From Polyangia bacterium (GTDB lineage: Bacteria > Myxococcota_A > Polyangia > Fen-1088), in contig DATATI010000074.1 in assembly GCA_036268875.1 (NCBI GenBank), forward strand, positions 197,886 through 261,885: DNA of 64,000 bases, in the 5' to 3' direction. The first letter of the stretch is position 1. Each line of letters starts with the position of its first letter. This document shows positions 7,488-12,710 of the stretch, one piece after another. The position numbers and the translations under genes were made by a program. The notes below the pieces were generated by a model. It was not told the DNA's origin, did no database searches, and saw only the letters and a program-made list of their open reading frames with translations.

Positions 7488-9050
7488 ATGAGCACGATTT
7501 CACTCACCGGACTGCAGCTTTTTGAGACGCCACTGACGTTTCAAAGACGCTCGTCCTCTGGCACCCTGCCCGACTTTCTCAGCGCCGCGGCCGTGGCCGC
7601 GTCGTCACTTCGCAGCACCAACACAGCGTCGGCGTCGGGCGCGTTCTCGGTCACCCGCACCGCGACCGTTGATCCCGTGCACGTGTCCAGCCTGGCCACC
7701 GCGGCGCACGCGCAATCGTCGGGGTTCTCCAGCCTGGATGACGAAGTCACCGCCGGAACGTTGGCTCTGCAGATCAACGGCGCCAAATACACGCTGAACA
7801 TCGCCCAGGGCGAAACGCTGAAAGACGTGGTGGCAGGCGTGCGCGGCCTGGGCGCGCCGGTCGACGCCACCGTGGAGAGCGACGGCGGCAAACTGCGCCT
7901 GGGCATCACCACCCGCGCCACCGGCTTTAAACCCAGCGGCAGCGCCAGCGATGCCCTGACCGTCAGCGAGACCGACAGCGGCAGCACGGGCCACATGCTG
8001 GGCCTGGCCGTCAACCACCAGGCCAGCAACGCCATCTTCACCTTGCACGGCGTGGTCGAGCAACAGACCGACAATCACGTCGCCGACACCATCACCGGGG
8101 CCAGCTTCGATCTCACCAACCCGCCCGCCAGCACGGCCAGCAGCGGCACCGCCGACGCCACCCAGCGATCAGCGCAGCTTTTGCGGGGCGTGGTGGGCAC
8201 GCCGATCGGCGCCCGGATCTCCGTCGACAGTCTGGCCAGCGCCGCCCAGGTTCGTACCAGCCTGTACGCCTCGGCGGACGCGGCGGTGAAAAGCGGCACG
8301 CTTTCGTTGAACGTCGAAGGCAAGCAGACCGACGTGACGATCAACGAAGGCGACACTTTGGCCGACGTGCGCCGCAACATCCAGAACTCCGGCGCCGCCG
8401 TGAACGCGACGCTGGTCAACGACAGTGGAGGTGTTCGCTTGTCCATCGCCGCCTCCGCTACCGGTTATCCGTTGAAGGGCCGCCCCGAAGACGCGCTGAC
8501 CGTCACCGAAAAATCCACCGGCCAGGGCGGCCAATCGCTGAACCCGTCGGTGACCCAGGCCGCCACCAACGCCAGCGTCGCCGTCGACGGCTCCACCACG
8601 CAAAGCCGCAGCAACGCCGTCACCGGCGCCATCGCCGGGTTCACTCTGAACGCTCAGCACATTTCGACAACCGGCGCCGAGATCGTCACCCTGCCCGGCA
8701 TCGGCGGGCTGCGCCCGCCCATCAACGTGGAGAACGAACTGAACCGCGTGCTGCAGGCGCAGCTTTTGAAGCCACGCGATTTCGGCGTCACCGACGCCAC
8801 CGCGGCAAAGAAAGACGACGTCACAGCGGCGAACGACCCTACAAAATCGGCGGCCGCTCGCGGCCAAACCAACGGCGGCACCGAGAGCTCGCGGCGAGAC
8901 ATCTTGCAGAAGCTCACCGCCGTCGACGATATCTTCGGCGCGCTGCAGGCGGCGCACGCGCTGCTGCAAGCGATGACATCGACGAGGACCACCACACCGT
9001 CAACGTCCGGCCCGGGATCAATGTCAGCGGCGACGCCGCCTTCGTCCTAA
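7488..9050 (+). CDS. Orphan FliD-like protein with two flagellar-cap-type modules
   Basis: Numbered from an upstream in-frame ATG at 7434, two modules of about 150 residues repeat at roughly 71-230 and 260-410. Each runs: short strand region (FSVT / RISV), GTL-x-L-x-(I/V)-x-G, a (GE/GD)TL-x-DV segment, A-T-(V/L)-x-(S/N)-D-(G/S)-GG, ATG and DALTV, ending in a hook-IN-like strand pair (TNASVAVDG then SNAVTGAIAG). This is the core pattern of FliD/HAP2, the flagellar filament cap. The C-terminus is Ser/Thr-rich and low complexity with no FliD C-terminal domain. No flagellar gene is nearby. ATG 7488 (MSTISLTG) is preferred because the upstream 18 residues look random; neither start has a clear ribosome site. 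Confidence 0.65.
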   Translation: MSTISLTGLQLFETPLTFQRRSSSGTLPDFLSAAAVAASSLRSTNTASASGAFSVTRTATVDPVHVSSLATAAHAQSSGFSSLDDEVTAGTLALQINGAKYTLNIAQGETLKDVVAGVRGLGAPVDATVESDGGKLRLGITTRATGFKPSGSASDALTVSETDSGSTGHMLGLAVNHQASNAIFTLHGVVEQQTDNHVADTITGASFDLTNPPASTASSGTADATQRSAQLLRGVVGTPIGARISVDSLASAAQVRTSLYASADAAVKSGTLSLNVEGKQTDVTINEGDTLADVRRNIQNSGAAVNATLVNDSGGVRLSIAASATGYPLKGRPEDALTVTEKSTGQGGQSLNPSVTQAATNASVAVDGSTTQSRSNAVTGAIAGFTLNAQHISTTGAEIVTLPGIGGLRPPINVENELNRVLQAQLLKPRDFGVTDATAAKKDDVTAANDPTKSAAARGQTNGGTESSRRDILQKLTAVDDIFGALQAAHALLQAMTSTRTTTPSTSGPGSMSAATPPSS

Positions 9051-9499
9051 GACGGGCTTTTGCCCAGCAGGCGCCGCAGAGCGCGGGCCAAGGCCTGTCC
9101 GCCCCGCGCCGATGACGGCGCCACGAAGATGGTGTCGTCGCCGGCCAGCGTACCAAGCACGCCCTTGACGTGGGCTTCGTCCAGGGCCCGCGCCACGGTC
9201 GACGCCGCGCTGGCCTTGGTGCGAACGACGACCAGCGCGCCGTTGGTCTGCACGCTGTCGACCAGGCGACGCACGGGTTCGATCGGCAAGGTGCCGCCGT
9301 CGCTGTCGACGATATACCGGCCGCCGCCGGGGCGCTTCTGGCGCTGCACGCCCAGCGCCGCCATGTCGCGCGAAAGGGTCGCCTGTGCGGCGCGGATCCC
9401 GCGGGCGGCCAGGTGGCGCCGCAGTCCTTCCTGGGTCGCCACCGGATGGCGGTTCAAGATCTCGCGGATGGCGTCGCGACGCGCGTCGGCCGACATCAT
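9047..9499 (-). CDS. argR: Arginine repressor ArgR
   Basis: This 150-residue protein has the ArgR layout: an N-terminal winged helix (RRDAIREILNRHPVATQEGL then the recognition helix AAQATLSRDMAALG) and a C-terminal oligomerisation and arginine-binding domain with TLAGDDTIFVAP. Arginine binding drives hexamer formation and DNA binding to ARG boxes. Its ATG overlaps the argJB stop by one base (TGATG), so translation is probably coupled and the repressor is made with the enzymes it controls. A matching operator is visible before argC. The stop overlaps that of the convergent FliD-like gene. Confidence 0.92.
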   Translation of the reverse strand: MMSADARRDAIREILNRHPVATQEGLRRHLAARGIRAAQATLSRDMAALGVQRQKRPGGGRYIVDSDGGTLPIEPVRRLVDSVQTNGALVVVRTKASAASTVARALDEAHVKGVLGTLAGDDTIFVAPSSARGGQALARALRRLLGKSPS

Positions 9500-11649
9500 C
9501 AGGTCACCAGCGTGCCGACGCCGCGATCGGTGAACAGTTCGGCGACGATGCTGTGCGGGCTGCGGCCGTCGACGATGTGCACGGCTTGCACGCCGCCGGC
9601 CAGGGCGTTTTGCACCGCCTGCGTCTTCACCGCCATGCCGCCCCGAATGGCCCCGCCCAGGCGCGCCTCCAGCTCCGAGCCTTTGATCTCGGTGACCAGC
9701 TTGCCGTCGCCGTCCAGGATCCCGGGGACGTCGGTGAGGAAGATCAGGCGCGTCGCCCCGCACGCCACGGCGATCTCCGCCGCCGCCACGTCGGCGTTGA
9801 TGTTGTAGCTGGCCCCGTCGGCGCCAAAGCCCACCGGCGAGATCACCGGGATGTAGCCACGCTCAAGGAACATATCCAGCAGCTCCGAGTTGATCATCTC
9901 GATGTCGCCGACAAAACCGAGATCGGGCTTTCCCGGCTGCGGCGCCAGCTTCTTCGCCGTGATGAGGCGCCCGTCCTTGCCGGACAGCCCGATGGCGTTG
10001 CCACCCAGCAGGTTCAAAAGGCCGACGATCTCCGTGTTGATCTTGCCGGTCAGAACCATCTCCACCACGCTGACGTCGTCAGCGCCGGTGATGCGCTGGC
10101 CGTCGGCGAACTGCGATTTCTGGCCGAACCGTTCCAGCGTCTTGGTGATCTCCGGACCGCCGCCGTGAACGATCACCGGCCGCAAGCCGGCTGACTGCAG
10201 CAGGACAATCTCCTGGGCGAAGCTGCGCTTCAACGATTGGTCGACCATCGCCGCGCCGCCGTACTTGATCACCGCCCGCTTGCCGGCGAACTTGCGGATG
10301 TAATTCAGCGCCTCGACGATCACCGGTCGATTGACGGGATCCGTGGCGCGCGAAACAGCGGGCGTGGCCGCGGCCATCGACGAGGAGGACGCCGAGCTCG
10401 TCGCGGGGGGCGCGGGACTCTTCGAGGGTCCCGCATAAGATGAATAGTATTCAGCGTTGATGCGGACGTATTCATAGCTGAGGTCGCAGCCGAGGGCGCG
10501 CGCCTTGGCCGGCCCGCGGCGCAGGTCCATTTTCACGGCGATCTCGGGCTCGCGCATGCGGGCCGACAGCGCGGCGTTGTCAAAGGCGATCGGCCCGCCG
10601 TTTTCATAGACCCGGGTGCCCTGAATATCCAGGGTCACCTCGGCGGGATCAACGGCGAAGGCCCGCGCTCCGATGCGCGCGCCCAGCGCCGCCAGGATGC
10701 GGCCCCAGGACGGGTCGCCGCCGAAGACGCCCGACTTGACCAAGCTGCCGCCCGCCACCGCGCGGGCCAGATCGCGGGCCATGCCTTGGTCGGGAGCGCC
10801 TTCGACGTCGACGATGAGCAACTTGGTGGCGCCTTCGCCGTCGGCGGCGATGGCCCGCGACAGATCGGCGCAGATCTCGGTCAGCGCCGCGCGAAAGCGA
10901 TCGAACGCCGGCCCCGGGCCTTCAATCATCGGCGCGTCCGAGCGGCCGTTCGCCAGCACCATCACGCAGTCGTTGGTGGACATGTCGCCGTCGACGGTGA
11001 TTGTGTTGAACGTCTGATCGCTGGCGTCCTTGACCGCCGCCTGCAGCGTGCCCGGCGTGATGGCCGCGTCGGTCGCCACGAAGCAGAGCATGGTCGCCAT
11101 CTGCGGGTGAATCATCCCCGAGCCTTTGGCGATGGCCGCCAACTTGACCAAACGCCCGCCGATGTCGATGGTCCGACCGGCGGATTTGTCGCGCAGATCG
11201 GTGGTGCGGATGGCTTCGCTGGCGGGCGCCAGATCGTTTCCCAGCGAACCGGCCAAGGCCGGCATCGCCGCTTTGATCACCGCCATCGGCATCCGCACGC
11301 CGATGGCTCCCGTCGACGCGGTCAGGACTTCTTCGGCGCCAAGGCCCAGCGCCACGGCGGCGGCGGCGGCCATCGCCCGATCATCTTCCAGGCCGCCCGG
11401 GCCAGTCAGCGCGTTGGCGTTGCCGCTGTTGGCGATGATGGCCCGGATGCCCGCTGACGGCAGGCGCGCCGACGATCCGCGAATCGGCGCCGCGCAGAGC
11501 TGGTTCGCCGTGAAGACGCCGGCCGCCGCGCACGGCGTGTCCGAGATGATGACGGCCAGGTCGCGCTTGGTGCCGGTGGATTTGATGCCGGCGCGGGTGG
11601 CGCCAAAACGAAACCCGGTGGGAATGGCGACGACGGTCTCGGACATCAC
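9499..11649 (-). CDS. argJB: ArgJ-ArgB fusion: ornithine/glutamate N-acetyltransferase joined to acetylglutamate kinase
   Basis: A single 716-residue frame holds two arginine-pathway enzymes. Residues 1-about 404 are ArgJ, which recycles acetyl from acetylornithine to glutamate; it contains KGSGMIHPQMATMLCF, in which Thr186 would be the autoproteolysis site and nucleophile, and ends with the usual YVRINAEYYSS. Residues about 405-440 are a Pro/Ala/Ser-rich linker. Residues about 443-716 are ArgB (acetylglutamate kinase) with KYGGAAM, VHGGGPEI and NINADVAA. An internal ATG at 10377 has no ribosome site, so separate ArgB initiation is unlikely. The GTG/ATG start overlaps the argC stop. Self-cleavage would leave the ArgJ beta chain attached to ArgB. 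Confidence 0.95.
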   Translation of the reverse strand: MMSETVVAIPTGFRFGATRAGIKSTGTKRDLAVIISDTPCAAAGVFTANQLCAAPIRGSSARLPSAGIRAIIANSGNANALTGPGGLEDDRAMAAAAAVALGLGAEEVLTASTGAIGVRMPMAVIKAAMPALAGSLGNDLAPASEAIRTTDLRDKSAGRTIDIGGRLVKLAAIAKGSGMIHPQMATMLCFVATDAAITPGTLQAAVKDASDQTFNTITVDGDMSTNDCVMVLANGRSDAPMIEGPGPAFDRFRAALTEICADLSRAIAADGEGATKLLIVDVEGAPDQGMARDLARAVAGGSLVKSGVFGGDPSWGRILAALGARIGARAFAVDPAEVTLDIQGTRVYENGGPIAFDNAALSARMREPEIAVKMDLRRGPAKARALGCDLSYEYVRINAEYYSSYAGPSKSPAPPATSSASSSSMAAATPAVSRATDPVNRPVIVEALNYIRKFAGKRAVIKYGGAAMVDQSLKRSFAQEIVLLQSAGLRPVIVHGGGPEITKTLERFGQKSQFADGQRITGADDVSVVEMVLTGKINTEIVGLLNLLGGNAIGLSGKDGRLITAKKLAPQPGKPDLGFVGDIEMINSELLDMFLERGYIPVISPVGFGADGASYNINADVAAAEIAVACGATRLIFLTDVPGILDGDGKLVTEIKGSELEARLGGAIRGGMAVKTQAVQNALAGGVQAVHIVDGRSPHSIVAELFTDRGVGTLVT

Positions 11650-12710
11650 GGTGTGCTCCCGGCAAGGCCCAAAAGGCCGGTGGTTTCTTCAAAACCGAAC
11701 ATCAAATTCGCGTTCTGCACCGCCTGGCCGGCCGCGCCCTTGACCAGGTTGTCGATGGCCCCGAACCCGACGGCAATGCCGCGCTCGGGATCGGCGTCGG
11801 CGCCCAGCAAGACCCGGTTGGTGCTGATCACGGCGTGCAGGCGGACAGCATCTGGCTTCGTCGCGCGCAGGAACGCCCGCCCGCGCACGAAGTCTTGCAC
11901 CGCCGCCGCCGCGTCCGCCGCCGCCTTGCCCGCGCGCAAGCGACCATAGGCCGTGGCCAGGATCCCGCGACGCGTGGGAAGGAGATGCGCCGTGAACGTC
12001 ATCGGGCTGACTGGCGCGCCGGCCAAGGCCAGCGCCCGTTCGATTTCGGGCGTGTGCTGGTGACGCAAGACCCGATAGGCGCGAAAGTCGCCGTCGGTTT
12101 CGGAGAACGACATTTCTTCGGTGGCCTTCCGGCCGGCGCCGGTGGTGCCGCTCTTGGCGTCGACGATGATGCCGGTTGGTTCGATGACCCCGGCGCGCAG
12201 CAGTGGCAGCACCGCCAGCGCGCTGGCCGTCGGGTAACAACCCGGGTTCGACACCAACCGCGCCGAACGAAGCTGACGGGTGGTCTCATCGCCGGTGACC
12301 TCCGGCATCGAATAGACCGCTTCCGCCAGCAGGTCGGGCCGGGTGTGCTCGAATCCATACCAGCGCGGGAAATCGGCCGCCTTCAGCCGAAACGCGCCCG
12401 ACAGATCGACCACCCGCGCGCCGGCATCCAGCGCGGCCGGCGCCAGCGCCAACGAGACCTCCGCCGGCGTGCAGAAAAAAACCAGGTCGAGGCCGTTCAA
12501 TTGCTTGGTCGCCTCCGCCTGGGGTTGCACGGTCAAGGTCGCCAGCGAGCCCGCCACCGACAAACAATCCCCGAGCGCCCTGCCCGCCCATTTGTCACTG
12601 ATCACCAACCGGACCGCGAAGCCCGGGTGCCCCGAGAGAATGCGCCCGAGCTCCATCCCCGCGTACCCGGAGACGCCGACGATCCCGACCCGAACCACCT
12701 GGCTATTCAT
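11646..12710 (-). CDS. argC: N-acetyl-gamma-glutamyl-phosphate reductase
   Basis: This 354-residue NADP-dependent enzyme makes the third step of arginine synthesis, reducing the product of ArgB to the semialdehyde. The N-terminal Rossmann motif GIVGVSGYAGMELGR and the catalytic cysteine segment SNPGCYPTA are present. It is first in the argC-argJB-argR unit. Its stop codon overlaps the next start. An ARG-box-like palindrome and a possible -10 lie directly before the ATG, with no Shine-Dalgarno sequence, which suggests a leaderless or nearly leaderless message repressed by ArgR (inference). Confidence 0.95.
   Translation of the reverse strand: MNSQVVRVGIVGVSGYAGMELGRILSGHPGFAVRLVISDKWAGRALGDCLSVAGSLATLTVQPQAEATKQLNGLDLVFFCTPAEVSLALAPAALDAGARVVDLSGAFRLKAADFPRWYGFEHTRPDLLAEAVYSMPEVTGDETTRQLRSARLVSNPGCYPTASALAVLPLLRAGVIEPTGIIVDAKSGTTGAGRKATEEMSFSETDGDFRAYRVLRHQHTPEIERALALAGAPVSPMTFTAHLLPTRRGILATAYGRLRAGKAAADAAAAVQDFVRGRAFLRATKPDAVRLHAVISTNRVLLGADADPERGIAVGFGAIDNLVKGAAGQAVQNANLMFGFEETTGLLGLAGSTP

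Follow-up and report, generated by a model that had tools for sequence, protein, structure and literature searches.

A fusion of ArgJ with an arginine-sensitive-type ArgB in Myxococcota, the kinase half of which may be retained as an arginine sensor

The locus described here raises the question why an ArgJ (glutamate/ornithine acetyltransferase) and an ArgB (N-acetylglutamate kinase, NAGK) should be encoded as one protein, and what could cause such a fusion to be retained. In the window, by which is meant the whole stretch of 64,000 nucleotides that was analysed, argJB lies on the minus strand in a single open frame (9499-11649) uninterrupted by a stop. The ATG at 11646 forms a TGATG overlap with the stop codon of argC and is for this reason a likelier start for this gene than the listed GTG at 11649. 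Residues are numbered here from this ATG, and the nucleophile Thr185 is the same residue as Thr186 of the original prediction, which was counted from the GTG. The gene and its neighbours are as follows.

9499..11646, minus strand: argJB coding sequence, ATG at 11646, TGA at 9501-9499, 715 amino acids (alternative GTG start at 11649)
11646..12710, minus strand: argC, upstream of argJB with a TGATG overlap (TIGR01850, 336.7 bits, cut-off 233.6)
9047..9499, minus strand: argR-like repressor gene, downstream of argJB with a TGATG overlap

Since argJB overlaps both of its neighbours by TGATG, the three genes appear to form an argC-argJB-argR operon; the argR-like gene scores 110 bits with argR_whole (TIGR01529), which is below the cut-off of 130. 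In the window protein, Pfam recognises ArgJ at residues 15-403 (441.7 bits) and AA_kinase at residues 457-694 (151 bits). With the NCBIfam models, the ArgJ half scores 444 with NF003802 (cut-off 351) and 404 with TIGR00120 (cut-off 298), and the ArgB half gives 236 bits with TIGR00761 (argB; cut-off 151.3). The original prediction that ArgJ and ArgB form one polypeptide, with catalytic motifs kept in both, is borne out by the uninterrupted frame, by both halves (residues 1-400 and 442-715) exceeding the NCBIfam cut-offs, and by the presence of the ArgJ active-site residues and of all nine NAGK residues.

The ArgJ half and the linker that follows it are divided as given below.

11095..11646, minus strand: ArgJ alpha part, residues 1-184 (residue 184 of the query is where the alpha chain ends in solved ArgJ proteins)
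10447..11094, minus strand: ArgJ beta part, residues 185-400, with the nucleophile Thr185 (solved beta chains start at 185)
10324..10446, minus strand: Pro/Ser/Ala linker, residues 401-441, predicted to be disordered

The alpha part contains the oxyanion residues T112-G113, and the beta part contains T185, E271, K304, R316 and N397. The autocleavage site, which had been predicted to lie before Thr186 (i.e. Thr185), was placed correctly, because the beta chains of solved ArgJ proteins (viz. 1vra_B, 3it4_B and 2vzk_B) begin exactly at query residue 185. From what is known of the ArgJ family, the mature products would be ArgJ-alpha and an ArgJ-beta-ArgB chain. In all aligned fused proteins T112, G113, K174, T185, K304, R316 and N397 are invariant, and the exceptions seen in the ArgJ halves are one E271D and two changes of Ala to Gly before the nucleophile. 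A decay of ArgJ alongside ArgB, hinted at by a strict motif search, was rejected, as the aligned columns show that the catalytic residues are kept. In the AlphaFold (AF2) model of the window protein there are two confident domains, with pLDDT under 50 at residues 395-444. The linkers of 81 fused proteins are 17-43 residues long and vary in sequence too; most members of the class share the linker sequence ..DDRLTNYSPxFKRxLLVEALSYI.., which in the window's family is replaced by a Pro/Ala/Ser-rich one. The original prediction had also raised the possibility of a separate argB start with a ribosome site, and such a site was sought in the linkers of these 81 proteins with none found to be conserved. 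The linker DNA in the window has an internal ATG with no Shine-Dalgarno site upstream, loose matches to such a site occur in 4 of the 81 linkers, and an internal start yielding free ArgB was accordingly rejected.

The further possibility that a sequencing error had joined two frames is ruled out, because the identical in-frame join is present in four further genomes of the window's family (69-73% identity). A search for proteins with both domains found the fusion to be widespread in Myxococcota and not elsewhere in the samples taken. In a profile search of the class, a full-length fusion in a single frame is present in 47 of 318 genomes, in 23 further genomes the frame of ArgJ continues into a diverged ArgB, and three more fusions are split at contig ends, the total for the class being at least 70/318 genomes. 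The fusion is also present in 40 of the 96 genomes of the Archangium family, in about 80 of the 195 genomes of the phylum group to which this family belongs, and in other classes. It is found in single-contig genomes (G279-G281), and the record of Archangium violaceum Cb vi76 shows the order argC-argJB-argR-argH, with the gene names read by eye. Outside Myxococcota, the genome searches covered Bacillota_A only, where 0/299 genomes have the fusion and 51/299 have argJ and argB as neighbours with a stop between them. A scan of the collection outside Myxococcota gave, among the matches listed, only argJ/argB neighbours separated by stops; neighbours of this kind occur in single genomes of Spirochaetota, Cyanobacteriota, Dormiibacterota and Methanobacteriota. 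In the open-access literature, no report was found of ArgJ fused to ArgB, nor of an ArgJ that carries a kinase-like arginine sensor. Some genomes carry additional copies: one of the Archangium family (G584) has two fused genes (C65:71077-73152 and C66:326312-328282), of which one matches the model over its full length and the other has an ArgB core that is partly missing or diverged, and two others (L043, G019:C139; L044, G028:C12) have an intact fusion and a second, distant stand-alone ArgJ (about 41% identity).

The second half of the window protein has the following features.

9502..10323, minus strand: ArgB (N-acetylglutamate kinase) half, residues 442-715 (TIGR00761 and residue table)
10288..10323, minus strand: N-terminal helix VIVEALNYIRKF, of the kind seen in arginine-sensitive hexameric NAGKs, its Tyr corresponding to TmNAGK Tyr15
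9511..9540, minus strand: arginine-site motif ELFTDRGVGT (E-L-F-T/S-x-x-G-x-G-T), from the residue table and the DNA

All nine NAGK catalytic residues that were checked are found in this half (K8, G11, G44, R66, N158, D162 and K217 in E. coli numbering are present), and it is probably still a working kinase. The arginine site of NAGK consists of a Tyr in the N-helix, a Lys in the central sheet and the E-L-F-T/S-x-x-G-x-G-T motif (PMC3236213, PMC4490483), the role of TmNAGK Tyr15 in the N-terminal helix being described in PMC3236213. The window ArgB bears the sequence marks of an arginine-sensitive NAGK, viz. this motif and the N-helix Tyr, and its best PDB matches are 2bty (262 bits) and 2buf (258 bits). 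The central-sheet Lys196 (TmNAGK) is an Arg in the window protein and in three near relatives, and a Lys in the other 87 fused proteins; due to this, arginine binding by the window ArgB is less certain than in its relatives. Because the kinase residues are all present, the window protein is probably bifunctional, with both activities open to arginine control.

The 91 fused ArgB halves were aligned with TmNAGK and PaNAGK, and nine catalytic and nine arginine-site positions were read from the alignment. By this reading 41 halves are intact, 15 have lost one or two catalytic residues, and 35 have lost at least three of the nine, the last group including all members of family f6, in which the acetylglutamate-binding part is deleted. 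Of the catalytic residues, Lys27 survives in only 53 of the 91 halves, Asn178 in 47 and Lys237 in 55. Among the arginine-site residues (TmNAGK numbering), His253, Glu266, Phe268, Gly272 and Gly274 are kept in 91/91, Tyr15 in 90/91 and Lys196 in 87/91. No part of the ArgB half is more constant than the arginine site, which the original prediction did not take into account. Within the 35 degenerate halves each arginine-site residue is kept in 33-35 proteins, and the catalytic Lys and Asn remain in one each. However, as these 35 were selected for catalytic loss, the fair test is between the arginine-site columns and all other conserved columns; in 12 lineage representatives the former are kept in 11-12/12, against a mean of 7.9 for the latter (Mann-Whitney p 1.4e-5). 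Of the otherwise conserved columns, these representatives keep a fraction of 0.92 in both the N-helix and the C-terminus, and of 0.59 in the core. By a simple counting method applied to these high-GC genomes, dN/dS of the degenerate ArgB half is 0.03-0.17 for close pairs of f6, where it is below that of the ArgJ half in 5/6 pairs, and 0.2-0.32 for close pairs in f11 and f26, and these low values indicate that the decayed half is maintained by purifying selection. In another class, an even shorter tail is found on ArgJ (L127, G322:C21, and also G335, G358 and G366); in G322 it amounts to 164 amino acids, with little left beyond the N-helix and the arginine-site end.

For the degenerate half of an f6 protein (G030), an AF2 model was obtained with pLDDT 86.4 and pTM 0.80. 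Among solved structures, the arginine complex of Thermotoga NAGK (2bty) is nearest to it (Z 22.0, 209 residues, 2.8 A). Next come other NAGKs of the arginine-sensitive type and Neisseria NAGS with arginine (3d2p, Z 20.1), and then UMP and glutamate kinases at Z 19.4 or less, differences in Z of under 1 being ties. A NAGK fold is to be expected of this model, because its input alignment contains intact ArgB sequences, and what the model shows is that the shortened f6 sequence is compatible with such a fold.

The phylogenetic trees bear on the number of events. In the tree of ArgJ halves, which comes from a quick search with SH-aLRT support only and a limited sampling of unfused ArgJ, unfused and fused proteins are parted by a single branch (SH-aLRT 96), and thus one fusion event suffices. 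If the intact and pseudokinase states of ArgB are placed on this tree, then parsimony needs 10 changes. In the tree of ArgB domains, one clade (100) holds the fused ArgB together with free ArgB from twelve genomes of the window's family, with the free proteins nested inside the fused ones, and therefore ArgJ has most likely been dropped from the fusion in these twelve relatives. The free ArgB of these genomes (L009-L020; G002, G004-G006, G009, G010 and G012-G017) apparently still lies behind argC, and in G002 and G006 a distant ArgJ is encoded elsewhere in the genome. In families f11 and f26 a free ArgB is found beside decayed fusions; it falls in another clade than the fused ArgB, and due to this it looks like a separately acquired replacement kinase.

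From the pattern of residues lost and kept, about 35 of the 91 fused genes probably encode an "ArgB" that does not act as a kinase, and in about ten lineages an ArgB half that has lost its catalytic residues and keeps the arginine-binding site probably serves ArgJ as an arginine sensor. The gene is made up of ArgJ, a flexible linker and an ArgB of the arginine-sensitive type, and for the family as a whole we consider it likely that the ArgB half is kept as an arginine sensor for ArgJ. Selection would then keep arginine binding by the ArgB half, and this half, with arginine bound, would pass feedback inhibition on to the covalently attached ArgJ. In the window organism, arginine would control both activities of one polypeptide. 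In other lineages the kinase step can be carried out by a free or an argC-linked second ArgB, and the fused half would have turned into a pseudokinase sensor. The design principle would be that of classical NAGS (ArgA), with ArgJ substituted for the GNAT domain; there, arginine is bound by a kinase-like domain that has no kinase activity, and this domain inhibits the GNAT domain to which it is attached (PMC4490483). However, some points stand against the interpretation of the ArgB half as a sensor. A purely structural role in a hexamer would likewise lead to retention of the N-helix, and the linker between the fused halves is variable and probably disordered, a longer linker having abolished arginine inhibition in classical NAGS (PMC4490483).

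In many of the genomes with the fusion, including that of the window, a second ArgB is encoded after a second argC. In the window genome this argC and argB-like kinase are located at G000:C79, about 102170-104030 (L083:8174-10032), and in family f6 the second argC-ArgB pair is followed by an apparent M20-type peptidase gene. A search of the window genome with the argB model found the fused and the second ArgB only and no further kinase-like domain of the ArgA type, which would fit ArgJ as the source of acetylglutamate. An assignment of the second ArgB as a LysW-type kinase was rejected, as it scores 169.7 with the argB model (cut-off 151.3) and does not reach the cut-off of any LysW model. In this argC-linked ArgB 9/9 catalytic residues are present, and Tyr15, Lys196 and, within the motif, E-x-F..G are missing, a reverse pattern which indicates that the catalytic and arginine-site sets separate in both directions. 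Since it is intact without the arginine site, the arginine motif is not needed merely for folding. This result bears upon the alternative that ArgB is kept for its N-helix and core, which would assemble into a hexamer and so stabilise or organise ArgJ, with arginine binding incidental. The retention of A12, L13 and F19 of the N-helix in 11-12 of the 12 pseudokinase lineages agrees with such a scaffold, which we nevertheless regard as unlikely, because retention is no less strict for the arginine binders (Lys196, Glu266 and the G-x-G-T loop) than for these residues.

The reading of the ArgB half as a sensor also has to be weighed against the proposal, made in the original prediction, that the fusion brings the producer of acetylglutamate and its kinase into one assembly, such that N-acetylglutamate is passed to the kinase or made beside it. 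Channelling or co-assembly of this kind would suit the window protein and the other fused proteins whose kinase sites are intact, and especially four genomes (viz. G282, G283, G132 and G277) where the fused ArgB is the sole ArgB found and is intact. However, the halves that have lost three or more catalytic residues, some of them without the substrate-binding part, remain fused under purifying selection, and the linkers differ in length as well as in sequence. Co-assembly is not supported as the general reason for the fusion, kinase residues having been lost in about 10 branches with the arginine site kept, and channelling likewise cannot be the general reason because pseudokinase halves are retained. 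We thus judge this explanation to be quite improbable for the family, and channelling may be of some benefit in proteins with two active halves.

It could also be argued that the fusion is neutral, resulting from loss of a stop in an argC-argJ-argB operon, and that the kinase half decays wherever another ArgB exists. Many unfused argJ/argB neighbours share a frame, often with a single stop between them, as seen in Bacillota, in other phyla and in G417, a genome of the same phylum as the window in which argJ is followed by one stop and then argB, and such pairs show how the fusion could arise. Moreover, free ArgB is commoner where the fused ArgB is changed, a free argB being present in 14/37 genomes with a changed fused ArgB vs 2/26 with an intact one (Fisher p 0.008, a test that ignores relatedness). 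However, under neutrality the remnant would have been truncated in many genomes, whereas the decayed halves have dN/dS of about 0.03-0.3 and the same small set of residues is kept in every lineage. Neutral stop loss is therefore a good explanation for the origin of the fusion and a poor one for its retention, for which we hold it to be very unlikely. One genome with a decayed fused ArgB gave no other ArgB match (L090, G074:C630; the genome is 93% complete), and in this case either a contig is missing or another kinase does the step. Lastly, an assembly or frameshift artefact joining two genes, for which no supporting evidence was found beyond the window genome being a draft of 95 contigs, is practically excluded by the identical in-frame join in dozens of independent assemblies, the single-contig genomes and the A. 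violaceum record among them.

With the ArgB half interpreted as an arginine sensor, the fusion can be compared with known systems. Similar to classical NAGS (ArgA, e.g. of Neisseria gonorrhoeae), it has a NAGK-derived domain with E-L-F-T-x-x-G-x-G-T, often without the kinase residues, which is covalently joined to a glutamate-acetylating enzyme, and its degenerate half is modelled as the same fold. However, ArgJ, which is the acetyltransferase of the fusion, is unrelated to GNAT and is a self-cleaving enzyme with a Thr nucleophile; the sensor of the fusion is C-terminal instead of N-terminal, and many of the fused proteins keep a complete kinase site. As the GNAT domain is absent from the window protein, in which the only Pfam matches are ArgJ and, after it, AA_kinase, the fusion may work like ArgA, but it will be incorrect to regard it as a member of the ArgA family. 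With the arginine-sensitive hexameric NAGKs (Thermotoga maritima, 2bty; Pseudomonas aeruginosa, 2buf) the window ArgB shares the N-helix, the catalytic residues and the arginine motif; it differs in being the C-terminal half of an ArgJ fusion and in having Arg for Lys196, and many of its relatives are without the catalytic site. The ArgJ half resembles stand-alone ArgJ (1vz6, 1vra, 3it4) in being full-length with a conserved cleavage site and active-site residues, whereas the solved and most known ArgJ proteins have no second domain. Acetylglutamate production and the kinase are also found in one chain or complex in the bifunctional NAGS/NAGK of Maricaulis and Xanthomonas and in the yeast NAGK/NAGS metabolon, where arginine control is exerted via the kinase domain (PMC3236213, PMC3329491), but in these the acetyltransferase is of the GNAT type and the kinase comes first. 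In the argH(A) fusion of Moritella and relatives, too, a glutamate acetyltransferase was gained by fusion to an arginine enzyme, and this has been proposed to bring the acetyltransferase under arginine control (PMC1382215); that protein, however, consists of ArgH and a short GNAT domain, without a kinase-like arginine site.

Classical NAGS is thought to have originated by the joining of a NAGK-like domain to an acetyltransferase, association followed by fusion having been proposed (PMC1382215). It appears fairly likely to us that the ArgJ-ArgB proteins are a second, independent kind of arginine-regulated glutamate acetyltransferase, in which a kinase has turned into a non-catalytic sensor several times, with the intermediates (intact, partly decayed and core deleted) still alive, and in which there have also been reversals freeing ArgB from ArgJ. 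For ArgJ, which is used in arginine and ornithine production, the fusion suggests a route to an arginine-switchable enzyme. Because the fused "ArgB" is often probably no kinase, a pathway reconstruction based on domain hits would be wrong in such genomes. The ArgJ-ArgB family looks like natural repeats of the step by which NAGS was formed, made with an unrelated acetyltransferase and seen at all stages of decay, and as these stages are all extant, the order of the changes (viz. fusion, gain of control and kinase loss) is testable with living proteins.
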